Source: Blautia sp.
GTDB taxonomy: Bacteria; Bacillota; Clostridia; Lachnospirales; Lachnospiraceae
Direction of reading: 5' to 3'
NCBI GenBank assembly: GCA_022769545.1
Contig: JALEJS010000035.1
Coordinates: forward strand, 1-64,000
Length of the DNA: 64,000 bases
The number at the start of each line of letters is the position of its first letter. Within the stretch, counting starts at the first letter, position 1. Below, one piece after another: positions 1-36,150 of the stretch. The notes under the pieces were generated by a model. The model ran no database searches, had not been told where the DNA came from, and was given only the letters and a program-made list of their open reading frames with translations. A program made the translations under genes and the position numbers.

Positions 1-26
1 GCATATCCGGACGATTTCAGGATATT

Positions 27-302
27 ATGCATCTGATTGTGACAATGGCGGTGGTTATGCTGTCATGTGCTTCGCTGATGTTGATTGTATACGGAGGCTT
101 GATTCAAAAAGAATGTCCGCCACTGGGAAAATGGGCACTGGCAGCACTTGCTATGATGATAACAGGTGCAGTAGGTACAACTGTGTTGCCACATGATTAT
201 TTTGGAATACCAGAGAGATTCAGCGTATTTGCTGCAGCTGGCTTCACTGCAGTTTTAGGAGTATATCTTTATATGGGATGGAAGGGAAAAAATGAAAAAT
301 AA
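27..302 (+). CDS. small integral membrane protein, unknown function
   Basis: 91-aa ORF with three hydrophobic segments; overlaps the next small ORF. Confidence 0.5.
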   Translation: MHLIVTMAVVMLSCASLMLIVYGGLIQKECPPLGKWALAALAMMITGAVGTTVLPHDYFGIPERFSVFAAAGFTAVLGVYLYMGWKGKNEK

Positions 303-468
303 TCATAAAAGCAGGCTGGCACAATTTTGGGAGCTGGTCAAAGCCGATGCTAAAACTGACAACGCTATCAAAGCGAGGATAGCCGAGGAAACCGTTCAGG
401 ATGTCGTGACCGGACTCCGGAAAACATTGAATTTCTTCGAAAGCCCGGAGAAAAATTCCAGCATCTGA
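292..468 (+). CDS. small hypothetical protein (58 aa)
   Basis: ATG at 292 overlapping the end of the previous ORF; MKNNHKSRLAQFWELVKADAKTDN...; below the size cut-off of the ORF track. Confidence 0.35.
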   Translation: MKNNHKSRLAQFWELVKADAKTDNAIKARIAEETVQDVVTGLRKTLNFFESPEKNSSI

Positions 469-621
469 TATTTTATCGCTGGTATTAGCGGTTACTCTTT
501 AAATCAAAAAATCAAAGCAGATGGGAAATATCTTGTTATCGTAAGTCAGTCATTCCTTCAATGATTGCAATTGACAAGAAAAGCAACAAATGATAATAGA
601 TAATAAAAATGGTATTTGTAT

Positions 622-661
622 AAAAAGCTGTAAAAAGTCACATTGAATTTTACAGCTTTTT
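622..661 (+). terminator. rho-independent terminator-like hairpin
   Basis: AAAAAGCTGTAAAA - loop - TTTTACAGCTTTTT, 14-bp perfect stem with T-tract. Confidence 0.7.
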
Positions 662-879
662 GTGTATACTATAGAAAATAGATAGAATAGGTGCAGATCT
701 CTTTAGAAGAGTCAGTTTCCGGACAGATTACAAGTATGCGGTTTGGGAGAATGATAGCAGCGATTGACGAACAAAAACACCAGGTTTTCATGCAAAATAT
801 GTCGACCTCTGTATGAGGTAAAAATAAAGCATCTGCATTTGTTGGGAACGATATTGAGATATTTTGGAGAAGGAGAAGA

Positions 880-1563
880 ATGCTGGATAATACAGGTATA
901 AAGGAAAAGATAATATCTTCTTTAGTTAATTTAGCTGAATACTACTCAATAGAAAAACTGATATTATTTGGTTCCAGGGCACGGGGGGACTATTACAAAA
1001 CAAGTGACATTGATCTGGCAGTAACAGGTGGTAATATTATTGAATTTACTTTGGATGTTGAGGAAAAAGTTCCTACGTTGTTGAAATTCGATATTGTTAA
1101 TCTGGATGGTACCGTTCAGAGTGAACTGCGTGATTCTATAGAAAAGGAAGGCGTTGTAATCTATGAAAAAATTGGGATAAAATTTGACAACTTCTGCATG
1201 GCATTAAAAAATTTAGCTGATATTTACTCTTATGAAGAGCCTTATAATAATGTTATCATTACGGGCCTGGTAGGTTTATATGAAATTTGTTTCGAACAGT
1301 CATGGAAAGCGATGAAAGAAATACTGTCTGCCAATGGGGTTGCTGAAAGTCAAACAGGATCTCCAAGACAAATATTAAAATCCGCTTATCAAGTTGGAAT
1401 GATAAAGGATGAAGAGCTATGGCTTGCAGCTCTGGTTTCGAGAAACAATGTGGCGCATGCTTATAATCGTGAAATCGCTAAGGATATTGTGGAACAAACG
1501 AAAATAAAGTATTATCAGATGTTTATGGATTTAAAGAATGAAATTGAGAGCAACTGGAAGTAA
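880..1563 (+). CDS. MNT nucleotidyltransferase fused to HEPN (HI0074-like) domain; single-chain MntA-HepT type protein
   Basis: N-terminal GSRARGDYYKTSDID fits GSX10DXD; C-terminal RNNVAHAY fits RX4HXY of HepT-type HEPN RNases. Confidence 0.85.
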   Translation: MLDNTGIKEKIISSLVNLAEYYSIEKLILFGSRARGDYYKTSDIDLAVTGGNIIEFTLDVEEKVPTLLKFDIVNLDGTVQSELRDSIEKEGVVIYEKIGIKFDNFCMALKNLADIYSYEEPYNNVIITGLVGLYEICFEQSWKAMKEILSANGVAESQTGSPRQILKSAYQVGMIKDEELWLAALVSRNNVAHAYNREIAKDIVEQTKIKYYQMFMDLKNEIESNWK

Positions 1564-1618
1564 TCAGGAATGATGGAGTTTCCGGGATTATCAGGAAAAA
1601 GAAAGGAACCTACACCAA

Positions 1619-3094
1619 ATGGAACACTTTGATCCCATTCACGAGACATCCTATCTGTCTGTCCCGAATGCATACATATATCGTAAGATCATGCGGTGCT
1701 TTTTCCGGGAATATGAGAAGATGCATTTTCAATTGTATAAAGAGGATATCTTCCGGTTAATAAAGCAGGACGAGGCTTTTGCCGACTATTCTATGGAGCA
1801 GCTGGAGCCGGATCTGGAGGCGCTGGTGAAGTGGAAAAATCTTACCCCGATTCAGGATCCCGGGCGAGTTTATACCATAGCTGATTACAAAAATAAACAG
1901 TACCGGTATACCATGTCTGAATATGCGGTTGAAATCGAGCGGCTGACTGTGCGGCTGGAGAATATTTTTCTGGAATCGGGAAATCTGTCCACGAACTTTT
2001 TTGTGCGGCTGGAAAACAGTCTGGAAGACGCGGAGAGCATGGAGTATGCAGGGCTGAAAGCAGTCAATGAGTGGTGGAGCATGCTTCAGGAAGATTTTAA
2101 ACGGCTGAATCAGAATTATCAGGATTATCTGAGAGACTTTTATTCGACGAAAACAGATCATTTGATGAAAACCGTGGAATTTGTGATCCACAAGGATAAA
2201 TTTATCAAGTATCTGAATGAATTCATACAGGAGCTGCAGCATCATTCCAGGCGGATAGAACAAATCCTTGTGAGGATTATGCCCATTATGGAAAATAGTA
2301 TTCTGGAGAAAGTGGTACAGAGTGAACTGGATATTCCCCATGCGCTTCTTGAGATTCATGGGAATGCGGAACTGAGCATTCGTGAAAACGTCGTGGGTAA
2401 ATGGAATTCCCTGAAAAACTGGTTTATTGATTCGGAGGGACACGAGTGTGAGTGCAAAAAAGTTCTGAAAATTACAAACGATGTCATCAGAAGCATTATC
2501 CAGAATGCCGCGCTGATCGTACAGATTCAGAACTGGGGAATCAGCAGGAAGGATGATTACCGAAAGTTTATGGAACTGTTTTTGAAATGTGAGGATCTGG
2601 AGGAAGCTCACCGGCTGTCTGCGCATGTTTTTGGAATACAGAATATACAGCATTTCAAGACAAACGAACCGCGGGAGGAGGACGCAATCAACAGCAGCGT
2701 ATATGAGGAGGATCCCGCGGCATTTTTATTGAAGCCCCATACGAGAACCTACCGGGAGAAAAAGGACAGGCATGGATTTGCGGATAAGTCTCTGGAAAAA
2801 ATGATGCAGAGAGAAAGCTATCTGCGCAGTGCCAGACAGCAGAAAGAAATCGAGATGCGATATATAAAAAATAACCGGATTATCTTTTCCGAAATAGAAG
2901 AAGTCATCTCAGAATCCACAAGAAATACATTTCTGCAGTGGATCACTCAGGCAAATATGAATTCACAGAAGAAAGGAAGGACAGAGTATGGACAGGAGTA
3001 CCGGCTGATTCAGAAAAAGGGAAGCTGTGTATTGAAATGTGAAGACGGACTGCTGACCATGCCTGCTTATATACTGGAGTTTAAACAACGATGA
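1619..3094 (+). CDS. jetA: Wadjet JetA-like kleisin subunit (TIGR02677/DUF2397-type)
   Basis: first gene of an ATGA-overlapping four-gene operon with a TIGR02680-like SMC; 491 aa, helical; RBS AAAGGA. Confidence 0.8.
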   Translation: MEHFDPIHETSYLSVPNAYIYRKIMRCFFREYEKMHFQLYKEDIFRLIKQDEAFADYSMEQLEPDLEALVKWKNLTPIQDPGRVYTIADYKNKQYRYTMSEYAVEIERLTVRLENIFLESGNLSTNFFVRLENSLEDAESMEYAGLKAVNEWWSMLQEDFKRLNQNYQDYLRDFYSTKTDHLMKTVEFVIHKDKFIKYLNEFIQELQHHSRRIEQILVRIMPIMENSILEKVVQSELDIPHALLEIHGNAELSIRENVVGKWNSLKNWFIDSEGHECECKKVLKITNDVIRSIIQNAALIVQIQNWGISRKDDYRKFMELFLKCEDLEEAHRLSAHVFGIQNIQHFKTNEPREEDAINSSVYEEDPAAFLLKPHTRTYREKKDRHGFADKSLEKMMQRESYLRSARQQKEIEMRYIKNNRIIFSEIEEVISESTRNTFLQWITQANMNSQKKGRTEYGQEYRLIQKKGSCVLKCEDGLLTMPAYILEFKQR

Positions 3095-4227
3095 ACGAAG
3101 TCAGAACACTGTTTGAAAATTTCTGGATCTGTAAGGACAGAGAGAAAGAAACATATTATAAAGTGAAGAGGGATATTCCAAATTTCCAGAGATTTGTCAG
3201 GGAACAGTTGGGCTGGAAACTGATCCATACAGAAAATCTGTTAAAGTTGGAAAAACGTCCTGCACATGCAGAAGCGTTTATGGGAATTCAGGAATTCACA
3301 GATATCAGGGATTACTGCATTTTGTGTGTGGTTCTGATGTATCTGGAGGATAAAGAGGAACAGGAGCAGTTTCTTTTATCTGAGCTGATCGATTATGTTG
3401 AGACACAGCTGAAAGCCTATATGATCATTGACTGGACTTCTTTTACCCAGAGAAAATCCCTCGTGCGTGTTCTGCAGTATATGGAAAAGCTGCAGATGCT
3501 GCGGGTATATGAGGGCAGCAGTGAGGCATTTGGTATGGGAGCCGGACAGGAAGTTCTGTATGAAAATACAGGTTATTCCAGGTATTTTGCAACCAGTTTT
3601 CCAACGGACATTTCCCGGTATGAGTCATGGGAGGATTTTGAAAAAACAGATTTTGAAGAATTCCAGCAGGACAGAGGAACCATGCGTATTAACCGTGTGT
3701 ACAGGCATCTGGCCGTATGCCCGTCGTTTTACTGGGAAGGAAACGATGATGCAGACGCACTGTATCTGAAGAATCAGCGCCAGTGGGTTGCCAGATACCT
3801 GAATGAAAATCTGGGCGGACATCTGGATATTTACAGAAATACTGCATTTTTGACACTGGATGCGGATGACTGTTATGGAAACGTGCATCCCAGGGATGCC
3901 ATGCTTCCGGAAGCGGTGCTTCTGGTGTGCGCCAGAATTCAGGAAAATCTGGCGGCAGGAAAACTGAAAAAGCAGGAAAATGAGTGTATTTATATGACGA
4001 AGAAAGAATTTGCGGATCTTGTATCGGAATGCAGAACATCCTGGAAAAATGCATGGAGCAAGGAATTTCGTGAAATGGATGAAGATAAACTGCCCGGTAC
4101 GATTATAGAATATATGAAAAACTGGCTGATGATCCGGTGTGATGGTGACCGGATTACTGTGCTGCCGTCTGCAGGAAGGGCTGCAGGATATTATCCGGAT
4201 GATTTTAAGGGAGGAAAAGAGGAATGA
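3091..4227 (+). CDS. jetB: Wadjet JetB-like subunit (TIGR02678/DUF2398-type)
   Basis: 378 aa; 4-bp overlap with jetA and jetC; position and family resemblance. Confidence 0.8.
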   Translation: MNEVRTLFENFWICKDREKETYYKVKRDIPNFQRFVREQLGWKLIHTENLLKLEKRPAHAEAFMGIQEFTDIRDYCILCVVLMYLEDKEEQEQFLLSELIDYVETQLKAYMIIDWTSFTQRKSLVRVLQYMEKLQMLRVYEGSSEAFGMGAGQEVLYENTGYSRYFATSFPTDISRYESWEDFEKTDFEEFQQDRGTMRINRVYRHLAVCPSFYWEGNDDADALYLKNQRQWVARYLNENLGGHLDIYRNTAFLTLDADDCYGNVHPRDAMLPEAVLLVCARIQENLAAGKLKKQENECIYMTKKEFADLVSECRTSWKNAWSKEFREMDEDKLPGTIIEYMKNWLMIRCDGDRITVLPSAGRAAGYYPDDFKGGKEE

Positions 4228-7200
4228 TTGGCCGATGGAAAATGAACCGGATCGGGTTCGTGAATTTCTGGCTGTATGACGAAGAAGATTTTGAATTTGT
4301 GGATGGAAAGCTTCTTCTTCGCGGACAGAACGGATCCGGAAAATCAATTACGACACAGAGCTTTATTCCTTTTGTGCTGGATGGAGATCGCACCCCGAGC
4401 CGTCTGGATCCTTTTGGATCCAGTGACAGGAGAATGGAATATTACTTTTTGGGTGAGGAAGGAAAGGATGAGGCAACCGGATATCTTTTCCTTGAATTCC
4501 GGAAGGAGGAGACAGGAGAATATCTCACCATTGGAATCGGGCAGCGGGCAAAACGCGGAAAGCCCATGGATTTCTGGGGATTTATTATTCTGGACGGCCG
4601 GAGAATTGGGTATGATCTGTGGCTGTACAAAGAGGTCGGCTCCGCCAGGATCCCTTATGATAAACGGGAAATGAAGGCGAAACTGGGAGAGAACAATTTT
4701 TTTACGGATAGTCAGAGCGAGTATAAAAAACATGTCAATCAGTATATTTTCGGTTTCCGAAAAGCGGAGCAGTATGAACAGTTTATCAGGCTGCTTGTAA
4801 AAGTTCGTGCGCCGAAGCTTTCCAAGGAGTTCAAGCCTACAAAGGTATATGAAATCCTCAATGACTCTCTGCAGACCCTGACAGACGAGGATCTGCGCGC
4901 CATGGTTGATGCCATGGAAAAAATGGATGAAATTCAGGACAGTCTGGATATGCTGAAACGCGCCTTTGCAGATGTAAAGATCATACGGAATGAGTATACA
5001 CGCTATAATCAGTATATGCTTGCAAAAAAAGCCCAGGCATATCTTGTGAAAAAGCAGGAAGTGGAGACTGCCCGGCACAGGCTTGATGCAAAGGAACAGG
5101 AGAAATGTCAGATAGAGCTTGACCGGAAGTCTGATCAGCAGCGCCTGGAGGAACTGACAGAGAAAAAGAAGCTGGCAGAGACAGAGCGCAATGGATTGCT
5201 GGATACTGATCTGGAGGAAATGGACCGGAAGCTGGAGGCTGCAAAGAAGGAAAATGATCAGGCGCTGGAGAATGAAAATCGGTGGAACAATAAAATACAG
5301 GAATGCAAAGAACGGATCTGGCAGGGTGAGCAGCAGCTGAAAAATCTTCAGAGCTGTCTGGAGCAAAGGCAGGAGATATTGCTGGAAAAGAAGCGGGAGC
5401 TGGAGCAGCAGCAGGAAATCCTGCAGTGGGATCAGCATGAAAAGGCAATGCAGGTGATGGCAGAAGAGGAATGCGACAAGACGGATGAAATTGTGAAAAA
5501 TCTGGACATGCTGAAAAATCTCATTGAAGAATGCAAAAAAGCGATACGTCAGTACGAAGAGCTTGCGAAACAATATGATGAGGCAGCAAGAGAGCTGGAA
5601 GCGCTGGGGCGGCAGAAAGCAGAAGAGGAGCAAAGGCTTGATGCCGCAAAAGAACTGGCTGTGAATGCAGTTGACCAGTGGATCACAGATGTTTTTGAAC
5701 TGAAAAAAAGTTCTGAAGAGTGGAAACCTCGTGAAGAGGTTCTGAAGGAAGCAGAGCAGATGATTCGCCGGTATCAGTCGGCTGCGGATGCCGGAGCTGT
5801 GCAGGAGATTTTTCGTGCAGATTATGAGCGCCAGCGTCAGAAACTGACGGATGCGAGGAGTGACCGTGAGCATGAACGAAAGATCCGCAGAGAGGCTCTG
5901 GAACAGGCGAAAACAGAGCTTGCACTCGTTCAGAACCAGGAGGAACTGGAGCCGGAGCGGGACGAAAATGCAGAACAAACCAGAGCGGCCCTTCAGAATG
6001 CTGGAATCACGGCAGTGCCGTTTTATAAGACGGTGGAGTTTTCCGGTGAACTAAGCAGGACTGACTGTGCAGAAATAGAGGCTCAGCTTCAGAAAATGGG
6101 AATTTTGGATGCACTGGTAGTAGCTCCTGATGATTTTGGCAGGATCCGTGAGGAATGCCCGGAATTTCTGGATTGTGTTCTGTACGTGGAAAAAGAAGGA
6201 ACCTCCGGTTTTTCCGGACTGGTTTTAAGTGAAGAACTGGATGGCAGGCTGAAGGAAACGGTTGCTCGGATTCTGAGCAATCTTTATGAAGAGGAGACCG
6301 GACAGGGTGTTTTTCTTGGAAAAGACGGACGTTTTCGCCAGGGAATCCTTGCCGGAAAAGCCCGTAAAGACAGTGAGGCAGAGTTCGTCGGCCTTCTGGC
6401 GAGGAAAAAGAGAAAAGAACAGAAAATACAGGAGCTTGAGGAGAAAATCCGTGAGCTTTCGGCAGCAGTGTCAGAGGTGGAACAGGAGATCACTCAGATA
6501 CAGGAACAACTGGAAAAACTCAAGACGGAATACCGGAAACTGCCGGGATTTACGGAAATCAATACTGCCCTGGACATGGAAAAAGACTGTAATCTGAAGC
6601 TTCTCAGGATCAGTGAAGAGTATAAATTTAAAGAAGCGCAGGAGCAGAGCCTGGCACAGCAGAAAAATCAGAAATATCAGATAATGCTGCAGAAATGCAG
6701 ATCGTTCCCGTACGGAAGAACAGAAGAGGCGTATGAAGAAGTCAGTGATGCCATCGAGGAATACCGGAACATCTGGCAGGATGTACGCACGGAACTGTTT
6801 CAGCTCAGAGCAGAACGGATAAACTGTCTGGATAAAGAAGAACAGATTGCACGGGATGAACAGGCGCTGGACGATGCTTTTGTGGAAAAGCGGAATTACA
6901 GTACAAAAGTTAAAGAATGTGATATCCAAATCAGACAATATGAGGAGTATCTCAGCCGGCCGGAAATTGTAGAGAAGGCGAGGCGTCTGAAGCAGATCAG
7001 AGAAGAGCTGGACAGAATAAACGCGGAATGCGCAGAGAGGAATAATTCTCTTGTGCGTCTGGATGTAATGTTGAAAAATCTGCTGGATACGATACCGGAG
7101 CAGAAGGAACACCTGCAGCAGGCAATTGCGGAAGAAAACTGTCTGAGGAAATACTTCGAGGAGGAACTCTCTCTGAAGCTTGTCATTGACAGGGAAAGCC

Positions 7201-8288
7201 GTACACTGCCTGAATGTGCCCAGGAAGCGATGAAAATGCTTCGGGAAAGTGACAGGAACAGGGAACCGTCAGATATGCTTCAGTCTCTGTATCAGGTCTA
7301 TCAGCGTCATAACAGCAGCCTTACAAGCTATGGAACAGCTCTGGATGAATGTTTCGGCGCAGTGGATGAGATTCCGGGAGCCGGAGAAAATACTGTCGTG
7401 ACACGAAAGCGTGTGCGAGTCGTATCTGTGTGGAATGGTAAAAAAGTATACCTGGAGGAGTTTTACGGAATATTGAAATCCTCCATTGATGAAACAGAAC
7501 TGCTGATACAGAAAAAAGACAGGGAATTGTTTGAGGATATTTTGTCCAGAACCATCAGCCAGCAGCTGACGGACAGAATTGCAGAGAGCAGGAAATGGGT
7601 TTTGGACATGTCGCAGCTGATGAGGGAAATGGATACCTCCATGGGTTTAAGCTTTTCACTGGACTGGAAGCCAAGGAAGGCTGAGAATGACGCTGAGCTG
7701 GATACCGTTGAGCTGGAGCAGATCCTGCTCCGGGATCGTGCGCTTCTGACGATGGAGGATATCGAAAAAGTTGCGGGACATTTCAGGAGTAAGATTCGTA
7801 CGGAAAAGCTGAAACTGGAAGAAGACGGCGGTGTAATCAATTACATGGAACTGGTGCGCGATGCTCTGGACTACCGCAGGTGGTTTGCATTTCAGATGTA
7901 TTTCAGACGTGGGGAAGAACCGAGAAAACCTCTGACCAATGCTGCGTTTAATCGTTTCAGCGGAGGAGAAAAGGCAATGGCAATGTATGTCCCTCTTTTT
8001 GCGGCAGTCAATGCTCAGTATAATAAAGCGGAAAATAAAGACCATCCGCGGATGATTGCGCTGGACGAGGCGTTTGCCGGTGTGGATGATAAAAATATCA
8101 GCAGTATGTTTGAGCTTGTTCATAAGCTTGACTTCGATTATATTATGAATTCCCAGGCTCTCTGGGGCTGTTTTGATACCGTTAAGGGGCTTCGGATCGC
8201 AGAACTGTTCCGGCCCCAGAATTCGCAGACAGTTTCTGTGATTCGATATACATGGAACGGACATGAAAGGATATTGGATGTGCAATAG
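4224..8288 (+). CDS. jetC: Wadjet JetC-like SMC/SbcC-type ATPase (TIGR02680-type)
   Basis: 1354 aa; Walker A GQNGSGKS, long coiled coil, C-terminal FSGGEKAMAMY signature and Walker B MIALDEAFAGVD. Confidence 0.92.
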   Translation: MIGRWKMNRIGFVNFWLYDEEDFEFVDGKLLLRGQNGSGKSITTQSFIPFVLDGDRTPSRLDPFGSSDRRMEYYFLGEEGKDEATGYLFLEFRKEETGEYLTIGIGQRAKRGKPMDFWGFIILDGRRIGYDLWLYKEVGSARIPYDKREMKAKLGENNFFTDSQSEYKKHVNQYIFGFRKAEQYEQFIRLLVKVRAPKLSKEFKPTKVYEILNDSLQTLTDEDLRAMVDAMEKMDEIQDSLDMLKRAFADVKIIRNEYTRYNQYMLAKKAQAYLVKKQEVETARHRLDAKEQEKCQIELDRKSDQQRLEELTEKKKLAETERNGLLDTDLEEMDRKLEAAKKENDQALENENRWNNKIQECKERIWQGEQQLKNLQSCLEQRQEILLEKKRELEQQQEILQWDQHEKAMQVMAEEECDKTDEIVKNLDMLKNLIEECKKAIRQYEELAKQYDEAARELEALGRQKAEEEQRLDAAKELAVNAVDQWITDVFELKKSSEEWKPREEVLKEAEQMIRRYQSAADAGAVQEIFRADYERQRQKLTDARSDREHERKIRREALEQAKTELALVQNQEELEPERDENAEQTRAALQNAGITAVPFYKTVEFSGELSRTDCAEIEAQLQKMGILDALVVAPDDFGRIREECPEFLDCVLYVEKEGTSGFSGLVLSEELDGRLKETVARILSNLYEEETGQGVFLGKDGRFRQGILAGKARKDSEAEFVGLLARKKRKEQKIQELEEKIRELSAAVSEVEQEITQIQEQLEKLKTEYRKLPGFTEINTALDMEKDCNLKLLRISEEYKFKEAQEQSLAQQKNQKYQIMLQKCRSFPYGRTEEAYEEVSDAIEEYRNIWQDVRTELFQLRAERINCLDKEEQIARDEQALDDAFVEKRNYSTKVKECDIQIRQYEEYLSRPEIVEKARRLKQIREELDRINAECAERNNSLVRLDVMLKNLLDTIPEQKEHLQQAIAEENCLRKYFEEELSLKLVIDRESRTLPECAQEAMKMLRESDRNREPSDMLQSLYQVYQRHNSSLTSYGTALDECFGAVDEIPGAGENTVVTRKRVRVVSVWNGKKVYLEEFYGILKSSIDETELLIQKKDRELFEDILSRTISQQLTDRIAESRKWVLDMSQLMREMDTSMGLSFSLDWKPRKAENDAELDTVELEQILLRDRALLTMEDIEKVAGHFRSKIRTEKLKLEEDGGVINYMELVRDALDYRRWFAFQMYFRRGEEPRKPLTNAAFNRFSGGEKAMAMYVPLFAAVNAQYNKAENKDHPRMIALDEAFAGVDDKNISSMFELVHKLDFDYIMNSQALWGCFDTVKGLRIAELFRPQNSQTVSVIRYTWNGHERILDVQ

Positions 8289-9570
8289 TAAAGAATGTGC
8301 AGGTTATTTTAAAAGTCAGAAAGCGTATCACAGATGTTTTCTGGAGCTGCGCAGGAAGTGGAAATCCTATGGAAAAACAGCCGGATACATCACTCTGCGG
8401 GAGACATCGGAGGAAGAACGCCGTGCCATTGGGGGTATAGTGGGAAAAGTATTCTATGAAAAAGATATCCGGTTTTCTGTTACAGAATTTGAGCAGGGAT
8501 TACAGAAAACGAGGTTTGCGCCGGTGGAACTGAAAACCGTACTGGAAGAGTATTTTGAAGAAGTGCTTTTCACGAATCAGGGACAAAAACAGGAGCAGCA
8601 GAGAAAGAGAATAGAGTATCTGGAAGGAATCTGTGACTGTTTTGTGGAGCTGGGAGGCAGTGAGTCAGCTTCTGTATCCTGGATGAAGGAAGTAATTTCT
8701 GAAAGAAAATTCGGGTATCAGATACTGCTCAGAGAATTCGGGAAAGATCCTGCACAGGCGGAGAATCTGGCTGGGAATGTGGGGCGCGCACTTATGAAGC
8801 TTGGGTCTGTACAAATGACGGAAAGTGAATGTCCTCTGGCTGTGTTTGCTGCCGAAATATCCGGGAATCCACATTATTTTGACCGTGGTACTGCGGCCGG
8901 ACAGCTTTTGATTCATGCACTCTGTTACTGGAAAAAGACAGAATTGCCGGAGAATGCACATCAGTGGCGGGAACTGCTTCAGAGTGTCGGAATTGTGCCG
9001 GATAACGTGTCCAGTATGCTGCATGCTTATGGGCTGAGGATGAAGACAAAAGATGGATGGCATCCGGCTTATGATGCATTCTGTACATTAAAGGAACCAT
9101 ATGTGATTACAATGGAGAATTTAAGAGGAATTACCGGTATACAGGCCATGGGAAACAGCGTATATGTGGTGGAAAACGAGATGGTTTTCAGTTATCTGAT
9201 CAACCATGCAAAGGATGGGAATCTGACATTGCTGTGTACTTCAGGGCAGCTTCGTGCTGTGGCACTGGAACTGATCAAAATGATTCTTGATTCGGGAGTC
9301 GGAATTTATTACAGCGGGGATATTGATCCGGATGGGGTTGGAATTGCGGACAGACTGTGGCAGAAATTCGGAGATGGAATTCAGATGTGGAGGATGACAC
9401 CGGAAGATTACGAAAACAGTATTTCCGAGGAAAACATCGGAGATATCGGTATGGCGAAGCTTGGAAATATCAAAAATCCATTGCTGAGAGAGACGGCAGA
9501 GCATATGAAGGCAAAAAGAATTGCGGCATATCAGGAAAATATACTTGAGGACCTGCTGGGGGACTTATAG
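8263..9570 (+). CDS. jetD: Wadjet JetD-like nuclease (TIGR02679/DUF2399, Toprim-like)
   Basis: 435 aa; IYYSGDIDPDGVGIADRL Toprim-like motif; overlaps the jetC 3' end. Confidence 0.88.
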   Translation: MKGYWMCNSKECAGYFKSQKAYHRCFLELRRKWKSYGKTAGYITLRETSEEERRAIGGIVGKVFYEKDIRFSVTEFEQGLQKTRFAPVELKTVLEEYFEEVLFTNQGQKQEQQRKRIEYLEGICDCFVELGGSESASVSWMKEVISERKFGYQILLREFGKDPAQAENLAGNVGRALMKLGSVQMTESECPLAVFAAEISGNPHYFDRGTAAGQLLIHALCYWKKTELPENAHQWRELLQSVGIVPDNVSSMLHAYGLRMKTKDGWHPAYDAFCTLKEPYVITMENLRGITGIQAMGNSVYVVENEMVFSYLINHAKDGNLTLLCTSGQLRAVALELIKMILDSGVGIYYSGDIDPDGVGIADRLWQKFGDGIQMWRMTPEDYENSISEENIGDIGMAKLGNIKNPLLRETAEHMKAKRIAAYQENILEDLLGDL

Positions 9571-9625
9571 AAATTCATGATAATCTGAACTTTGTGATTC
9601 GAGGAAGGCTTTTATGCAAAAAGGC

Positions 9626-9656
9626 TTGACTGTAAACCTCATTTATACTTTATAGT
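9626..9656 (+). promoter_or_regulatory. MerR-type promoter with 19-bp spacer, followed by palindrome TTAAGACA-N6-TGTCTTAA (9659-9680)
   Basis: TTGACT (9626-9631), 19 nt, TATAGT (9651-9656). Confidence 0.55.
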
Positions 9657-9711
9657 GATTAAGACAACCATATGTCTTAAGGAATTTTGTATGTTTGGAG
9701 GTTCTTTGGAA

Positions 9712-10548
9712 ATGACAATAAAAGAAGCTGAGCAGATGACTGGCCTGACACGCTCGAACATTCGATTTTATGAAAAGGAACAACTGATCAGCCCTGATCG
9801 AAATGTAAAAAACGGGTATCGTGAATATTCAGAAGAAGATATTCAGACGATTAAGAAAATTGCATACCTCAGAACGTTGGGAATATCGGTGGAGGATATT
9901 CGCAGGCTTTCGAGAAGGGAGCTTAAGCTGTACGATGTAGTGAAAGCACAAAGTAAGAATCTGGAGAAACAGCTGGCTGAACTGGAAAATGCAAAAATGA
10001 TGTGCGAAAGAATGCTGTCATCTGCGGAAATAATTGATTATGAAAATTTAGATGTTGAACGGTATGTGGCTGATGTAAAAGACTATTGGAGTAAAAACAG
10101 TAATATTTTCAAATTAGATTCCATAAGCTTCTTTTATATGTGGGGAGGCATTCTTACGTGGGGAATATTGACAATTGTCTGTCTGCTGACCGCAGCAGTT
10201 TCATTCGGAGATCTGCCTGCTGAAATTCCCATTCAATGGAGCGGCGGTATGGTGAGTTCTTTTGTGAATAAAAAATTTATTTTTGCCTTTCCGGCTGCGT
10301 GTATCATCATCAAATTCATATTGCGCCCTTTTATCTGGCGGTGGCTCAGGATAAATATTGTGGACAGTGATTTGATAACCGATTACATTACGAATTATTT
10401 ATGTTTCGCAGCCTTATCCGTACAGATCTTTATTATTCTTTATGTAAAAGGAATTATAAAATATGTGACGATAATACTTTTTCTTGATACAGCTGTACTG
10501 ATCGGACTGCTCATAATTGCCATGTACAGAATGGCAGGGAAAAAGTAA
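9712..10548 (+). CDS. MerR-family regulator with C-terminal multi-TM, DUF1648-like segment
   Basis: MTIKEAEQMTGLTRSNIRFYEKEQLISP HTH; LPAEIPIQWSGGMVSSFVNKK resembles DUF1648; start moved to 9712 behind GGAGG. Confidence 0.85.
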   Translation: MTIKEAEQMTGLTRSNIRFYEKEQLISPDRNVKNGYREYSEEDIQTIKKIAYLRTLGISVEDIRRLSRRELKLYDVVKAQSKNLEKQLAELENAKMMCERMLSSAEIIDYENLDVERYVADVKDYWSKNSNIFKLDSISFFYMWGGILTWGILTIVCLLTAAVSFGDLPAEIPIQWSGGMVSSFVNKKFIFAFPAACIIIKFILRPFIWRWLRINIVDSDLITDYITNYLCFAALSVQIFIILYVKGIIKYVTIILFLDTAVLIGLLIIAMYRMAGKK

Positions 10549-10568
10549 CGCTGCTTTGTTTTGGAGTC

Positions 10569-10606
10569 AAAAAAGGGGAACGACTGAAAAAAATCGTTCC
10601 CTTTTG
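10569..10606 (+). terminator. rho-independent terminator
   Basis: AAAAGGGGAACGA - loop - TCGTTCCCTTTTG. Confidence 0.75.
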
Positions 10607-10730
10607 TATTGTTATATTACCACAAAATCGGCAAAAATACAAGTCTGGCAATGCATTCCGTTTGGCGTTATAATCAACTCCCTTAAATAGAAAACAGTAC
10701 AGATAATTTCTGCCATCGGGAGGGGTATGC

Positions 10731-11255
10731 ATGAGTCAGGATTGGATGATTTTATTACAGAAACAGAATCAGCTGGGCAAGATTATGGAAACAAATAGAA
10801 CCGCACAGCAGTATGGACTTACGTTGAGCGAACAGGATGCGCAGCTGATTCTGAAGGAATGCGGAAACAGTCTTCGGGAACAGAAAAGAGTGGAGTTTGG
10901 AGAGGGAATCACCCCGAAAATTATTTATGAATTCTGTGATTCAGAATATATTAATCAGAGCGATTATGCGGACACGATCATCCGCCTTCATGACATTTTT
11001 TATCTGTATAAAAATGAAATGCAGGATGAGATCACAGATGATGAACTGCTTCATCTGATGAAGGAACAGTTTGAGAAGGTATGCTTTGGAGATCTTGATT
11101 ATCTGGAGGGGACATGTCTTTCTGATTTTGCAAAGGCCATCCGGGCCGGATATGGAGAATATAAAAGGACAGATGGATATGGAGAGTACTCCAGATTTCA
11201 GGAAGGCAACGGATGGAATTATGAATGGTACCTTGAGGCGCTGAAGGAACTCTGA
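10731..11255 (+). CDS. uncharacterised protein, DUF6323-like
   Basis: 174 aa; LTLSEQDAQLILKECGNSLREQKRVEFGEGI; paired with the next ORF 15 bp downstream. Confidence 0.65.
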   Translation: MSQDWMILLQKQNQLGKIMETNRTAQQYGLTLSEQDAQLILKECGNSLREQKRVEFGEGITPKIIYEFCDSEYINQSDYADTIIRLHDIFYLYKNEMQDEITDDELLHLMKEQFEKVCFGDLDYLEGTCLSDFAKAIRAGYGEYKRTDGYGEYSRFQEGNGWNYEWYLEALKEL

Positions 11256-11270
11256 GGGAGGTGCTGGAAA

Positions 11271-12128
11271 ATGAATTATGAGATGGAAGAGCTGGTGCCT
11301 GTTGTGGGAAAGCTGGCAGAGAAATATACAGGACATGAAAGTACCTCTGTTACTTATGAAAAAGCGGAGCAGCTGATGGAAGCGGTGATATACTGCATCA
11401 GTGAGGGGGAACAGTCTGCCCGGAATTCGCTTTCCAATGTGCAGAAAGGATCTGCACAGCAGGCTTATGAAATTGGCCTTGCCTGCGTAAAGAAAAAAGT
11501 GAAAACTGCGCTGGGGCTTTATAATGAAATGCTGCCGGGACTGGATGCTTTTGAGAACCGATGCTTTTATGACACAGTGATAAAAGGCCTGCCGGAATTC
11601 TTCAAATGGTATGATCCGGTATTTGAACCGCAGAATACGCTTCTGACACTGGATTATCCGGTGCTGAAAGATCTTTCCGCGTATAAGGGAATTGACAGGA
11701 TTTACGAATATATCCGGTGTGTGGAACTGGAACAGCGTTTCCTGGGGATCTTTCCCAATGATCATGTTAGGAATATACTGTACAGATATGATAAAAAATA
11801 CCGGTTGATGATTGAAAATATCTGTGAGATTGTTCTGGCAGATACACTGGGGCATATTCTGGTCAGAAAATCGTTGCAGGAGCCGGTCTCCATGGAAGAC
11901 TGCCGCCGGATGCAGGAGATGCTGTGCCGGAAAGAGCTGGGTGAGATTACTGCACTGCTGCAGCAGATGCTGAAAGCTTTTCTGGAACAGTATTGCAAAT
12001 CCGGCGGCGGAGTGGCGGAGTATCTGGAATATGCCCTGCAGGATTTATCCATACGGCTTAAAAATGCGGCAGAGCATGGGAATGTTCAGGGAATATTCTT
12101 CCATCATTCTCACGTTCGTTCGACTTGA
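11271..12128 (+). CDS. uncharacterised protein, DUF6179-like
   Basis: 285 aa, same operon as the DUF6323-like gene; GGAGGTG RBS. Confidence 0.65.
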   Translation: MNYEMEELVPVVGKLAEKYTGHESTSVTYEKAEQLMEAVIYCISEGEQSARNSLSNVQKGSAQQAYEIGLACVKKKVKTALGLYNEMLPGLDAFENRCFYDTVIKGLPEFFKWYDPVFEPQNTLLTLDYPVLKDLSAYKGIDRIYEYIRCVELEQRFLGIFPNDHVRNILYRYDKKYRLMIENICEIVLADTLGHILVRKSLQEPVSMEDCRRMQEMLCRKELGEITALLQQMLKAFLEQYCKSGGGVAEYLEYALQDLSIRLKNAAEHGNVQGIFFHHSHVRST

Positions 12129-29145: not shown

Positions 29146-32100
29146 ATGAGGAGAAAACAACGGATGCGGCAGATGACTGCCTGGATGCTGTCTGTTGCCA
29201 TGGTAATCGGAAACGGTTCTGTTTCCGTGCTGGCAGAAGAGGCGCAGACAGAAGCAATGACAGAACAATATGCGGTGGAAGCATCTGCAGAGGATTACGA
29301 CACACTGGAAATGCCTGTGGAAACAGTGCCTTCGGAAGATATGCAGATTGCAGAAGAAACGGTACCGGAAGAAGCTTATCCGGAAGAAGAAATTCCGGAG
29401 GAAGAGGATATCTCTTCGGAGGAACCGCTTTTTGCAGAGGAGGATACCTGGACGGGGGCAGAAGAAATTGCGCCCGCGCAGGAGCAGGACGAGAATGCAG
29501 AGACGGATTCACAGGAAGCTGCATTCACAGATGACGGCTGGATCGACAAAGATGCTGCAGCAGAAGCGGCGGCTGTGCTGGCAGCAGATGAAGAATCCGG
29601 CTTCAATATTTCGTTCGGAGATTTGCGCGGCGGGGATCATACCTGGATCTTTCCGGATGAAAACCTGGAGATTCCGCTGGATCTGAGCAGTCTTTCAGAT
29701 ATCGAAAATGTCAGTGTGGATATTCAGGCCGGACGTTGGAATCATGAGGAAGGCATGCTTGGGGATATGATTCCGGAAGAAGAGGAAGGCACTTATTTTT
29801 CCTATGATCCGGATTCAGGTGTTATTACCCTTTACGGAGCGGCTCTGGCAGAGCGTTTCTGCGAAGACAATGGCGGAAACTGGTTCCACCTGGAAGTGCT
29901 TGTAACGGTGGGTGAGGATGTGGCAGCGCAAACCGTCACATATGTGGAGGAAAGGCCAATCGTGCGTGATTACTGGAGGCCTTCCTTCAAGGCACAGCTG
30001 CCGGACTGGAATATTGGTATTGACCGGTATCAGGAATGCTATGTGGAGGACGCAGAGCATCCCTGGGGCGGTTCCGTCGGTTATGAGATTACAGATGTGG
30101 AACTGGAAGTCGTTGCGGAAGACAGCGACGGAGAAGATGCCATTGTATGTGAGCCGTATGAGGATGGAAACGGCTGGAACATTCACATGAACCGCTATGG
30201 ACATGGTATCGTGACGATGACTTACCAGCTGATAGATGGCCAGGATGAAACGGATACATACAGCTTTGATGTGTGGGTGAGCGGAAGCTCCTACGATATG
30301 TATCTTTCTTCCAGTACCTATGCGTCACAGCTTCTGCCGGGAGCATCTCTGGAGCTTACGGCACATCCCTGGATGGACTGCTATGAGGAAGAACGGGGGC
30401 ACTATCAGGGTGACATCAGCAATCTGTGGGTGGAATGGAATGTGACAGATGAAGCGTATGAGGACGTACTTTCCTATTCCGCAGATCCGGAGGATCTGTT
30501 TACCATACACGTGGCGGCCAATCCGGACGGAGCGCGCAGGAGCGTTCAGTTCGAAGCAAGAGCATTTATTCCGGATGGGGACGATGAGGATTCGGAACCG
30601 GATGAAGTCGCTTGTGCGGATTTCTGGGTACATGTGCAGGACGGCTACTACAGACTGATGCCGGGAGATGACGAGGTAAAACAGGATCTGGCCGTTGGAG
30701 AAACCACCGTGTGGGAGCCGGAGCTTCAGTATTTTGAACTTGGTTCCGAGGATACGTATCGGGTGATCACGGAAAACGTGCGTTATCGCTGGGAGTGGGA
30801 TTCCAATGCGGTGGAGATTACCGACGCAGATGGTAAAGTTCTTACAAACAATACAGAGGACGGAAGCGGTGCAGTGGGAACGGCTCCCTTTACTGTGAAA
30901 AAGCTTCGGAACTGGGGAACAGACATTACACTGGTTGCAGAGCTCGTAGATGAGGAAGGAAACGGCGAGGAGGCAGACAGACGAAGCTGGAATCTGCAGG
31001 ATGTAGATTACGGTACATGGTTTGAGGAACAGCGCGGCGGAGATCATACATGGATCTTTTCAGAGGAAGATCTGACGCTGAACCTGAATCAGGAGAATCT
31101 GAGCAATAAGTCCGGGGATCCGGCTGTGGCAGAGTGGACGGTAGGAACGCAGGATGAGAACGGAAACTTTACACAGATTCTGACAAATCCTATGACAGAA
31201 GGGGCAGATGCATATTATGAAATTTCCGGGGATACCTACAGCATCACACTTCACGGCGGGGCGCTAAGAACGGTTTATGATCCGGAGACGGAAAACCGGT
31301 GGATCAGCGTTCGGGCAGTGGTGACGGCCGGAGAAGATGAGGTATCCCGGGCGGACACCAATGTAGAGATGGTGGACTCCTGGTATGATTATCAGTGGCC
31401 GGCAAACGGACCGGGAGAGGATCAGCTGTTCCCGGGAGACCGTTTGGATATTCCAAACGGCATGGAAGCGTTTGCCGTGGATAAAGAGCATCCCTGGGGA
31501 GAGAATATTCAGGTTGAGGTTACCGATGTACGTATTCTGAAGCAGGGAGAGGAATGGCAGGAGGACGAGCTGATCGATGATGGCCAGGAACGGCTCCGTC
31601 TGGAGGGTGATGTCCAGAATGGCTGGTCGCTGGAGGCAGGCGATCGCGGCGGATCTGCCCTGATTGAGATGACATATCGTTCCGCAGCAACCCAAGAGGA
31701 GGAAAGTCATACCTTCTATCTCCATATCTGTGATCAGAGATATCGTCTGGAATATTACTATCCCGATGACAGTGACTGTATGCTTCCAGGCAGTGGAATG
31801 GAAATTCATACAAGACTTTTCCGGGAATGGCATGACTGGGAAGGAAACCGGGAAGAGGAAGAAATCGAGGGCTATACGCTGGAGGTGTCCGATGAAAACG
31901 GACCATGCTATGATACAAATCTGCTTGAGGTGACGACAGAGAAAAATGAAGACGGAACCGTAAAGCTTTGTATCTCCTCCGGAGAAAATACATGGGATAC
32001 CAATATCCATACCCGCGTTATGGTGGATGATCAGGAAGTGATATCCTACGAAATTCATGTCAATGTGACAGACGAGTATTACAATATTCTTCCGGTGAGC

Positions 32101-35100
32101 TGGGAGGATACGGAAGTCGGAAATCCAAATCTGGGAGAAGAGCTGGATCTTAAGGGATTAGGACTTCATCTGATTCGGATTAATTCTGAGAATCCGGATG
32201 GAAAAGATGTGACGGATGATCCTGCATATCGGATCCGTCTGCCCAGGCCGGAAGAAGGCGGTTATGACAGCAATGCATGGACAACCGGGGAAGAAACCCA
32301 AGACGATCTGATCCCGGTTCTGCTCCGCAAAGGCGACTGGAATACCTGTGTGACACTGGTTGCAGAGCGGGCATGTGGGGAAGGCGATGAGGAAGGAAAT
32401 CAGAACTGGGAGGAACTGACGAAGCGCGACTATTGGTTCCAGGAACCGCAGTATGATGTGGAAATTCGTTCCTTCTATCAGGATCAGGAAACGGATCGTC
32501 TGTATACAGATGCATCCCTGACGGTGGAATTCCGGGACAATGGCCAAGGCAGTCATCCTCTGCCGGAGGGCTGTGAGATTCGCTGGAGTGTGCAGGAAGA
32601 GACCGAAGAAGGACGTGTGGACTGCACGTATGTAACGGCGCAGGTATCCGATGAAGACCCTGGTGTTCTGGAGCTTACCGCCTCCGGGGAGGTTGGAGAA
32701 GACAAACAGATCGTTGTGCAGGCAGCGGTATGGTATGGGGATCAGGAAGTCGGACAGGCATCCAGAAAGTGCTGGATCTGGGTATCGGATCCGGTCTGCG
32801 ACTACCATTATCCATGTCAGGAAGCGGGAGAAAACCAGCTGCTTTATGGCAGAGAATATACGATCGGAAACGAGCTGGGGTACTCTCTTCAGAATGCAGA
32901 TTATCCGGATGGAACAGAGGATGCGGTTTCGGTGATCGATGTTCGTCTGGGAGAGCAGAAGCGTCTGAATGAAAACGGAGAGTGGGAAGATGCTCCGGAG
33001 GAGGAGCCGGTCTGCGAAATCGAAGAACGGGACGGAGAATGGGTGATCCGCGCAGTCGGTGCGGGATATGCCGAAGTAATCCTTACCCATGAATCAGCGA
33101 AAAACCGGGAAGAGACAGAAGAATACTCTTTCCATATGAATTCTTCGGATGTAGTTTATGTTCTGAATACATATTATCCGGATGATTTTGACTTCCTTCT
33201 GGTGAACGGAGAAATACAGATTCAGACTTCTCTGACCCGGTGTTACGACGATGAAAACGGAAATTATACGGAAGAGGATATCGCCGATTACGAGCTTCAG
33301 GTTCTGACGGACGAAGAAGGGAATCCTCTTTACGATACCGGACTTGTGGATGTGGAATTTGTTCCCGGGGAGGAATCCGGCAAAGTGGTCAGGGTGACCT
33401 CTAAAGGAGAAACGGGCTCGACCGATATTTATATCGGTGCATATCTGGATGGGGAGTACCCGATGACCATCCGTCGTCTGCATGTAAATGTGGAAGAAGG
33501 CTATACGCTGATCGTTCCCGGACAGCTGACGGATGAAAACGGCGAGACGGTCAATCCTTATCTGAACAGCCTTCTGGATCTGAGTGCGTTTGACATCCGG
33601 GTTCTGGAACGGAACCTTACGGAAAACGGGCCGGAAGAGAGGGACAGAACATCGGAGGTTCGTTTCAGACTGGAGTATGGGCCGGACGACTGGGAAGCTG
33701 TGGAAGAGACAGAGGAAGGAACCATTCCGGTTCTGAGACGTTTGAACCGCTGGGATACCGGCTTTACGGTTATCGCAGAAGCAGACTGTGCGGAAGAGGA
33801 AGGCCGGGAGGACTGGCAGGAAATCGCCCGCAGAGATTACTGGTTCCCGGCTGCCCTGTATTATGATGCAGAGGAAATGGATCTGTTCTCGGAGCTTCGG
33901 GGAGGAGATTATGTATGGCTCTTCACCGATGAGACAGAAGTTTCTGTGAGACTGAACAGCGAGCAGGTAATGCTCCCGGAGGGTGCTGCGGCAGAATGGA
34001 GACTGGGGGATTACAACGAAGAAGGCGAATTTGAGGCATTTGCAGAGGAAGCCTCCGGCTGCTTCCGCGTGGACGAGGATCAGATGGGAATCGTCATCGA
34101 CGGTACGAAGATCCTGGATGCACTGGACGGACGGTACGGATGTCAGCTTCAGGTATCTTTCCGGCTGGGAGAGGCAGACCTGGGCGGCGGTGAGATCTGG
34201 TGTGAGATCCGCGAGCCGGAGTGTTACCTGTACTTCCCGAAAGAGAAAGATATGCTGCTGGGTGATCCCGGAATCCGTTTTTCCAGTGACGAGCCGAACC
34301 TCTGGGTGAGGAACGCCAGCTATCCGGACGGGGAAGACATCTATGCACCGATCACATCCATGGTAAGCACCGATGAGATGGTCATCCGGTGTGAACAGAC
34401 AGAAGACGGAACGTGGACGGCCGAGGCGGTTGGAGAAGGCTATGCAGAAATTACCGTCACCGTGGAGCATGAGTCGATCGGTAAAAAGCCTTTTACTTAT
34501 CCAAAAACTGTCCGGGACGAGATCTATGCCCTGCTGGTATATATGAAACAGGGACGAGGCGCTATGCTTCCGGGACAGTCACTGGATATGCTGCCCTATG
34601 TCATAAGGAAAAACTATTCCGCAGAAGGGGATCTGCAGGCAGAAAACGTGACGGCACAGTATCCGGCCAGCTTCTTTGGTTATGATGAAGAACTGATTAC
34701 CGTGGATGAGGATGGAACCATCACCGCAGGAGATCATACAGGAGATACATGTATCACGGTATCCATTTCGGTTCCGGATAAGAACGGAGACTTTTATCCG
34801 GTCGAAAGAGATGTGAATATCTGGGTGGGTTCTGGCTTCCGAACGACACTTGTGGACAGTAATTATCCGGCAGAGCGCGGAGGCACCATCTATGCTTCTG
34901 ATCTGGGTGCGAAGGCTGTATTCTACAGTGAGGAATGTCCGGAAGGAATGGAACTGCCGGGTCATGTGTTCCGATTCTGCGAGTCTCCAGAGTATATGAC
35001 AATCAGTGAAGACGGAAGCAGTATTACCATTTCGGAGGATATTCCGGATGGCGTTCATGTGCTGCCGGTAAGTCTTCAGACAATTGAGATCGTGGATGGA

Positions 35101-36150
35101 CAGGAAGAAATCAGATGCTATTCCGATGTGAGTTTCGTTCTCGGAGATCATGTCTGGGATAACGGCAGAGTGACAAAGGAAGCAACCTGTATTGCAGAGG
35201 GAGAAAAGCGCTTCCGTTGTGTGGAACCTGGCTGTGCGGCAGTGAAGACAGAAATTCTTCCGATCGATCCGGATCATCACAGCCCGGTGACGGATCCGCT
35301 GAAAAAAGCAACCCTGACAGCAGATGGTCTGACCGCAGGAAGCCACTGTGAACTGTGCCAGGAAACACTGGTAAAACAGAATAAGATTTATCGTGTGTCC
35401 TCCATCACGCTATCCAAAACGTCTTATACATACAACGGAAAGGTGCAGAAGCCTTCTGTGAAGGTGGTGGATTCCAAAGGCAAGACCGTATCCTCGTCCT
35501 ATTATACGGTAACATATCCGTCGGGATGCCAGAATGTGGGCTCTTATACGGTGAAGGTTACCCTGAAAGGAAATTATTCCGGAAGCAAGAGTCTGACGTA
35601 CAAGATCACAAAGGCAAATCAGACGATTACGGCTTCTGACAAGACAACGACGCTGGGTGCTGCCAGCTTCTCGCTGGGCGCGAAGACGACATCCGGCGGA
35701 GGAAAGCTGTCCTATACATCCGGCAACAAGGCTGCGGCAACGGTTTCCAGCAGCGGAAAGATTACGGTGAAGGGTGTGGGGGCTGCGACCATTACCATTA
35801 AGGCGGCAGCTACATCCAATTACAATGAGGCGACGAAGAAGATTACCGTGACTGTCCGCCCGAAAGGAACGACCATTTTAGGACTTGCAAACACTGTTTC
35901 CAGACGTCTGACTGTGGCATGGAAGCAGAATACGGCAGTGGATGGCTATCAGGTGCAGTACGGTACGTCCTCCGGCTTCTCGGGAGCAAAGCTTTATACC
36001 GTCTTTGGAAAATCGAAGGTGCTTGCATATTTCAGCAGTCTTACAAAAGGAAAGACTTATTACGTTCGCGTGAGAACCTTTAAGAAGGTTTCCGGAAAAT
36101 ACTACTATTCTTCCTGGAGTGCGGCGAAGAAGCTGAAAATCACGAAATAA
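29146..36150 (+). CDS. large acidic secreted repeat protein with Ig-like (Big-type) and FN3-like C-terminal domains
   Basis: 2334 aa, signal peptide, ~475-aa repeat units, C-terminal ITLSKTSYTYNGKVQKPSV..., KVSGKYYYSSWSAAKKLKITK; AGGAGG RBS. Confidence 0.9.
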   Translation: MRRKQRMRQMTAWMLSVAMVIGNGSVSVLAEEAQTEAMTEQYAVEASAEDYDTLEMPVETVPSEDMQIAEETVPEEAYPEEEIPEEEDISSEEPLFAEEDTWTGAEEIAPAQEQDENAETDSQEAAFTDDGWIDKDAAAEAAAVLAADEESGFNISFGDLRGGDHTWIFPDENLEIPLDLSSLSDIENVSVDIQAGRWNHEEGMLGDMIPEEEEGTYFSYDPDSGVITLYGAALAERFCEDNGGNWFHLEVLVTVGEDVAAQTVTYVEERPIVRDYWRPSFKAQLPDWNIGIDRYQECYVEDAEHPWGGSVGYEITDVELEVVAEDSDGEDAIVCEPYEDGNGWNIHMNRYGHGIVTMTYQLIDGQDETDTYSFDVWVSGSSYDMYLSSSTYASQLLPGASLELTAHPWMDCYEEERGHYQGDISNLWVEWNVTDEAYEDVLSYSADPEDLFTIHVAANPDGARRSVQFEARAFIPDGDDEDSEPDEVACADFWVHVQDGYYRLMPGDDEVKQDLAVGETTVWEPELQYFELGSEDTYRVITENVRYRWEWDSNAVEITDADGKVLTNNTEDGSGAVGTAPFTVKKLRNWGTDITLVAELVDEEGNGEEADRRSWNLQDVDYGTWFEEQRGGDHTWIFSEEDLTLNLNQENLSNKSGDPAVAEWTVGTQDENGNFTQILTNPMTEGADAYYEISGDTYSITLHGGALRTVYDPETENRWISVRAVVTAGEDEVSRADTNVEMVDSWYDYQWPANGPGEDQLFPGDRLDIPNGMEAFAVDKEHPWGENIQVEVTDVRILKQGEEWQEDELIDDGQERLRLEGDVQNGWSLEAGDRGGSALIEMTYRSAATQEEESHTFYLHICDQRYRLEYYYPDDSDCMLPGSGMEIHTRLFREWHDWEGNREEEEIEGYTLEVSDENGPCYDTNLLEVTTEKNEDGTVKLCISSGENTWDTNIHTRVMVDDQEVISYEIHVNVTDEYYNILPVSWEDTEVGNPNLGEELDLKGLGLHLIRINSENPDGKDVTDDPAYRIRLPRPEEGGYDSNAWTTGEETQDDLIPVLLRKGDWNTCVTLVAERACGEGDEEGNQNWEELTKRDYWFQEPQYDVEIRSFYQDQETDRLYTDASLTVEFRDNGQGSHPLPEGCEIRWSVQEETEEGRVDCTYVTAQVSDEDPGVLELTASGEVGEDKQIVVQAAVWYGDQEVGQASRKCWIWVSDPVCDYHYPCQEAGENQLLYGREYTIGNELGYSLQNADYPDGTEDAVSVIDVRLGEQKRLNENGEWEDAPEEEPVCEIEERDGEWVIRAVGAGYAEVILTHESAKNREETEEYSFHMNSSDVVYVLNTYYPDDFDFLLVNGEIQIQTSLTRCYDDENGNYTEEDIADYELQVLTDEEGNPLYDTGLVDVEFVPGEESGKVVRVTSKGETGSTDIYIGAYLDGEYPMTIRRLHVNVEEGYTLIVPGQLTDENGETVNPYLNSLLDLSAFDIRVLERNLTENGPEERDRTSEVRFRLEYGPDDWEAVEETEEGTIPVLRRLNRWDTGFTVIAEADCAEEEGREDWQEIARRDYWFPAALYYDAEEMDLFSELRGGDYVWLFTDETEVSVRLNSEQVMLPEGAAAEWRLGDYNEEGEFEAFAEEASGCFRVDEDQMGIVIDGTKILDALDGRYGCQLQVSFRLGEADLGGGEIWCEIREPECYLYFPKEKDMLLGDPGIRFSSDEPNLWVRNASYPDGEDIYAPITSMVSTDEMVIRCEQTEDGTWTAEAVGEGYAEITVTVEHESIGKKPFTYPKTVRDEIYALLVYMKQGRGAMLPGQSLDMLPYVIRKNYSAEGDLQAENVTAQYPASFFGYDEELITVDEDGTITAGDHTGDTCITVSISVPDKNGDFYPVERDVNIWVGSGFRTTLVDSNYPAERGGTIYASDLGAKAVFYSEECPEGMELPGHVFRFCESPEYMTISEDGSSITISEDIPDGVHVLPVSLQTIEIVDGQEEIRCYSDVSFVLGDHVWDNGRVTKEATCIAEGEKRFRCVEPGCAAVKTEILPIDPDHHSPVTDPLKKATLTADGLTAGSHCELCQETLVKQNKIYRVSSITLSKTSYTYNGKVQKPSVKVVDSKGKTVSSSYYTVTYPSGCQNVGSYTVKVTLKGNYSGSKSLTYKITKANQTITASDKTTTLGAASFSLGAKTTSGGGKLSYTSGNKAAATVSSSGKITVKGVGAATITIKAAATSNYNEATKKITVTVRPKGTTILGLANTVSRRLTVAWKQNTAVDGYQVQYGTSSGFSGAKLYTVFGKSKVLAYFSSLTKGKTYYVRVRTFKKVSGKYYYSSWSAAKKLKITK

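Follow-up and report, generated by a model that had tools for sequence, protein, structure and literature searches.

A single-chain MNT-HEPN gene beside a type II Wadjet operon in Blautia sp., a probable fused derivative of the type VII toxin-antitoxin family

The analysed window, a stretch of 64,000 nucleotides of Blautia sp. (contig JALEJS010000035.1, assembly GCA_022769545.1), carries one open reading frame that encodes both an MNT and a HEPN domain and, downstream of it on the same strand, a complete type II Wadjet operon with jetA, jetB, jetC and jetD in order at 1619-9570 (Table 1). The fused gene has a good Shine-Dalgarno sequence (ggagaaggag), its candidate promoter overlaps a hairpin (aaaaagctgtaaaa...ttttacagcttttt) just upstream, and an Rfam search over 1-12000 returned zero RNA element matches.

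Table 1. Coordinates of the fused gene, its motifs and junction, and the adjoining Wadjet operon in the window
Feature	Coordinates	Strand	Basis
Candidate promoter of the fused gene, TTGAAT-16-TATACT	643..670	+	9/12 matches; count of such sites in the region not above chance
Single-chain MNT-HEPN gene, 227 aa, type VII (MntA/HepT-like) toxin-antitoxin module	880..1563	+	ORF, profiles, AF2, structure matches
GSx10DxD adenylyltransferase motif, aa 32-46 region, GSRARGDYYKTSDID	973..1017	+	sequence
Fusion junction TATGAAAAAATTGGGATAAAATTTGACAAC with 11 extra bases	1162..1191	+	spacing versus relatives
Rx4HxY HEPN motif RNNVAHAY, aa 188-195	1441..1464	+	sequence
55-nt intergenic gap, jetA ribosome-binding site agaaagga	1564..1618	+	sequence
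jetA (DUF2397), type II Wadjet	1619..3094	+	PADLOC JetX2 model
jetB (DUF2398)	3091..4227	+	PADLOC JetX2 model
jetC (SMC/MukB-like)	4224..8288	+	PADLOC JetX2 model
jetD (DUF3323/DUF2399)	8263..9570	+	PADLOC JetX2 model

The N-terminal half of the chain (residues 18-97) is an MNT/Pol-beta domain (Pfam PF18765, E 4e-14), to which the NCBIfam model NF047752 (MntA_antitoxin) also matches at E 1.5e-11 with a score under its 60-bit cut-off, and the C-terminal half (residues 101-223) is a HI0074 HEPN domain, for which PF08780 (E 1e-25) and TIGR01987 (E 4e-28) both exceed their cut-offs. These profiles agree with the initial annotation, which had read the GSx10DxD and Rx4HxY signatures in this one frame. 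Among the relatives, the former motif occurs in 59 of 59 MNT proteins and the latter in 61 of 63 HEPN proteins. At the columns conserved to at least 90% in relatives (30 in the MNT and 41 in the HEPN half, 71 altogether) the fused chain shows no deviation, and R188, N189, H193 and Y195 of the HEPN half are all retained, Tyr195 being the predicted AMPylation acceptor. The AlphaFold2 model of the fused chain is confident (pLDDT 93.2, pTM 0.69), with no residue below pLDDT 50 and no low-confidence linker. In Foldseek comparisons the HEPN half resembles the Legionella HEPN protein 8xeh_D, with a target-length TM of 0.87, and the MNT half the Legionella MNT protein 8xeo_B (TM 0.81); the whole chain resembles none of the solved single-chain enzymes, the aminoglycoside nucleotidyltransferases reaching a TM of only about 0.24.

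Class I type VII HEPN/MNT toxin-antitoxin systems have a GSx10DxD MNT and an Rx4HxY HEPN, both of which are present here, and two adjacent genes for separate toxin and antitoxin, in place of which the window has one open reading frame; we therefore treat the gene as a derivative of this family that has undergone fusion, and not as a standard member. The Shewanella oneidensis HepT/MntA system (SO_3166/SO_3165; PMC7641770), of class I type VII, shares both motifs and both folds with the window, but it consists of two proteins, its MntA has a long C-terminal helix that is missing here, and its HepT belongs to the DUF86 (PF01934) family whereas the HEPN half of the window belongs to PF08780. Both halves find their best match, in sequence as well as in structure, in the Legionella pneumophila HEPN-MNT system (8xeh, 8xdj; PMC11586414), whose MNT is likewise short and without the long C-terminal helix, although it is made as two proteins. 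The nucleotidyltransferase HI0073/HI0074 (1no5, 1jog) has a PF08780/TIGR01987 HEPN like the window and matches both halves structurally, again as two proteins and not one chain.

How the fusion arose could be read from a comparison with 66 relatives sampled from a species-genome collection, together with a search of 397 genomes of the same family. In every relative of which both halves were read, mntA and hepT are separate genes, and the window alone is fused in its clade; a fusion inherited as a clade trait was rejected on this ground. In these relatives mntA terminates in ...TATGAAAAAATATGA, a stretch within which the ATG of hepT is located, and in most of them the two genes overlap by about 8 nt. 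Between the codons for Tyr95 and Asn104 lie 24 nt in the window, whereas all 52 relatives whose junction allows the comparison have 13 nt there. Five others fall outside this count, three Selenomonas loci (L058-L060) for want of a usable junction and two distant ones (L064, L066) because they are built differently. The junction of the window thus holds 11 additional bases, equivalent to GGGATAAAATT, and the MNT and HEPN frames are joined by this insertion. The ancestral hepT ATG, which begins at the second base of the Tyr95 codon, meets a TAA after 5 codons in the window, and close to the junction the HEPN frame offers a single ordinary start codon, an ATG some 7 codons into the HEPN domain; therefore, a complete HEPN domain is most likely produced only as part of the fused chain. 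In the HEPN tree the window falls within the clade of split genes, separate from other fusions (support 100/99), with its exact neighbour not settled and long branches flagged, and the HEPN half of the two-gene relatives is at most 79% identical to that of the window. In the three Selenomonas loci, the MNT start is preceded at about 410 nt by an ORF of some 136 aa that is HEPN-like, and gene order or copy number there seems to be unlike that of the other relatives.

No second copy of the junction sequence was found elsewhere in the genome itself, nor a strain-level second copy of the fused gene, and the fused state is known from one draft assembly. That the insertion is a sequencing or assembly error, and the true locus an ordinary overlapping two-gene module, would accord with a fusion unique in its clade and with its origin in one draft genome, split into 50 contigs, in which the window begins a contig; yet an 11-base non-homopolymer insertion that leaves the frame open is an atypical short-read error, and the remainder of the ORF is clean, so that we consider this explanation unlikely. 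Early decay is another reading of the insertion: it could have damaged the module, leaving an inactive fused protein whose frame stayed open by chance, since roughly a third of random insertion lengths would bring the two parts into frame. For it speak the destroyed hepT start and the fusion being a singleton in its clade. Against it stand the intact conserved positions of both halves and the absence from the confident model of any residue below pLDDT 50, arguments of limited weight because a very recent insertion would look alike; we judge decay rather improbable.

The initial annotation had also presented the union of modifier and toxin in one chain as a departure from the characterised two-protein systems, and while the conserved residues and the confident two-domain model uphold the union itself, the architecture is not new. 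Single-chain MNT-HEPN forms with 28-36% identity to the window were found on a conjugative Ilyobacter plasmid, on a Candidatus Bandiella plasmid, in Acetoanaerobium, on a phage contig and in four genomes of the phylum (G439, G587, G666, G756), most of them with both motifs retained. Fusions of this kind are in the literature from 2009 on: a HEPN-MNT fusion on plasmid pAgK84 is cited in PMC2701414, and PF08780/DUF86 HEPN domains are listed as occasionally fused to MNT in PMC3710099. The Ilyobacter polytropus (WP_013389278.1) and Candidatus Bandiella woodruffii (WP_323733487.1) proteins have, as in the window, an MNT followed by a HI0074-type HEPN in one chain, but the natural fusions, these two included, usually have a longer linker and lie in a separate clade of the HEPN tree, and the Ilyobacter protein lacks the GSx10DxD match that the window has; the pAgK84 fusion, also one chain, is known here from the paper only. 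Independent fusions that carry both motifs are thus present in Bacillota, on plasmids and on a phage contig. An Aeromonas match was rejected as a fusion on account of an internal stop, and plasmid or phage carriage was likewise rejected, the plasmid and phage collections having yielded only relatives below 60% identity; a PHROGs search gave one unnamed weak match only. Two loci have other arrangements. In one (L158, G587:C8:2000-17000) a fused MNT-HEPN gene (6830-7504) lies about 4.5 kb from a two-gene MNT/HEPN pair (1683-2350, minus strand), and in the other (L159, G130:C12; 7613-7335, minus strand) an MNT domain whose HEPN partner went undetected shares one 635-aa frame with a part that resembles, by eye, galactose-1-phosphate uridylyltransferase.

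According to PMC3710099, MNT-fused HEPN domains are typically without the RNase residues and usually serve as substrate-binding or regulatory domains, and this generalisation favours a domesticated nucleotidyltransferase, comparable to kanamycin nucleotidyltransferase, in which the HEPN part would merely present the substrate and no toxin would exist. However, R188, N189, H193 and Y195 are kept, the whole chain is unlike known single-chain nucleotidyltransferases, and the close relatives have a two-gene toxin-antitoxin layout, which together make domestication quite improbable. In retaining the RNase residues, the window and most of the other fusions found depart modestly from the published generalisation.

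The fused gene and jetA are, as first annotated, codirectional and 55 nt apart, the stop of the former ending at 1563 and the ATG of the latter lying at 1619, and a terminator-like site looked for between them (1563-1619) was not found. A recurrent neighbourhood was sought both ways, from the relatives for jet genes and from the jet loci for MNT/HEPN genes, and was not seen, an outcome that the initial annotation had listed among those that would refute its reading. In the available flanks of the 66 relatives, which extend at least 5 kb downstream in 53 of 63 loci, jetA-D occur in none (0/66), and neighbour clustering gave no specific recurrent neighbour; the commonest cluster, ABC ATPase-like (10/63 loci), was rejected as a conserved partner since it stands at varied distances and looks generic. 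From the other side, a JetA match occurs in 38 of the 397 family genomes, 30 of the other jet loci were taken with upstream genes read where sequence existed, and MNT domains were sought in 37 of the 38 genomes; no other case of a relative of the fused gene adjoining jetA was met among them. In two of the 36 other jet genomes searched, G067 (L125) and G209 (L133), an MNT/HEPN pair of a different class, more distant in the family, lies about 2 kb upstream of jetA, with the HEPN gene before the MNT gene in G209, and in a third (G027) an MNT lies about 10 kb from the jet locus. If some 63 MNT loci were spread uniformly over roughly 118 Mb, about 0.14 MNT neighbours would be expected within about 3 kb of jetA, and two besides the window have a rough P of about 0.009; the two pairs accord with the general tendency of defence and toxin-antitoxin genes to cluster, more than with a specific partnership. 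Upstream of jetA, the nearest Wadjet relatives (JetA 79-85% identical) carry unrelated genes, DNA homology to the nearest one starting only at 1599, about 20 bp before jetA, and the GC content of the fused gene is about 35% versus 42-50% across most of jet. At four other jet loci of the family (L119, L129, L136, L148) long ATPase-like ORFs, AAA-ATPase/PD-DExK-like by eye, stand upstream of jetA.

The initial annotation had suggested that the fused toxin-antitoxin guards the Wadjet module and is freed upon its inhibition, and although the codirectional 55-nt gap and the excess of nearby pairs in G067 and G209 speak for such a role, those pairs are more distant family members that do not adjoin jetA, no relative's locus is near jet genes, and the upstream genes of the closest Wadjet operons are unrelated, which renders it very improbable. 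The operon is a complete member of Wadjet type II (JetABCD), and the fused gene is neither one of its components nor a recurrent gene beside jetA. The best reading is that the fused gene stands beside Wadjet by chance.

Based on these findings, we propose, with a probability of roughly 0.65, that a mobile module of the type VII HEPN/MNT family, HI0074/PF08780 class, had its overlapping genes joined by 11 bases and came to lie near Wadjet through clustering. The insertion at the mntA/hepT junction keeps one frame open and disables the ancestral hepT start. The family mechanism, in which the MNT AMPylates the tyrosine of the HEPN motif, is established (PMC7641770, PMC11586414), and therefore the MNT domain here should AMPylate Tyr195 and silence the RNase. 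The tethered MNT domain would move AMP from ATP onto Tyr195 of the Rx4HxY motif, either in its own chain or to a partner within a HEPN dimer, and the AMPylated RNase would be silent, with the toxin:antitoxin ratio fixed at 1:1; the fused module is thus probably still self-silencing. The place upstream of jetA would reflect defence-gene clustering, perhaps with read-through transcription, and not a component of Wadjet.

The comparison with Legionella bears on two parts of this mechanism. In an alignment read by eye, Gln44 of the Legionella metal site, proposed as catalytic, corresponds to Gly132 of the fused chain and Glu47 to Glu135, so the RNase activity of the fused chain is not assured; catalysis may depend on the Rx4H residues, or may be altered. 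The short Legionella MNT associates with a HEPN tetramer in a 1:4 ratio (PMC11586414), and a 1:1 tether may fail to reproduce this geometry. In other systems a long C-terminal helix of the MNT makes binding stronger; the short MNT half here has no such helix, and tethering could compensate for it.

MNT-HEPN fusion as such is already known and a guard role on Wadjet is unsupported; what the locus may offer, and we entertain this only tentatively, is a type VII module that works as a single chain, seen shortly after the fusion event, with its toxin inseparable from the AMPylating antitoxin. If so, the module would be silent by self-modification, the usual differential loss of the antitoxin could not free the toxin, and release would require ATP depletion, de-AMPylation or interdomain proteolysis. 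If real and active, the fused module set against dozens of two-gene relatives would form a clean natural comparison, posing the question whether a HEPN/MNT toxin can be released when inseparable from its antitoxin. Elsewhere in the window, a 2334-aa open reading frame occupies 29146-36150.
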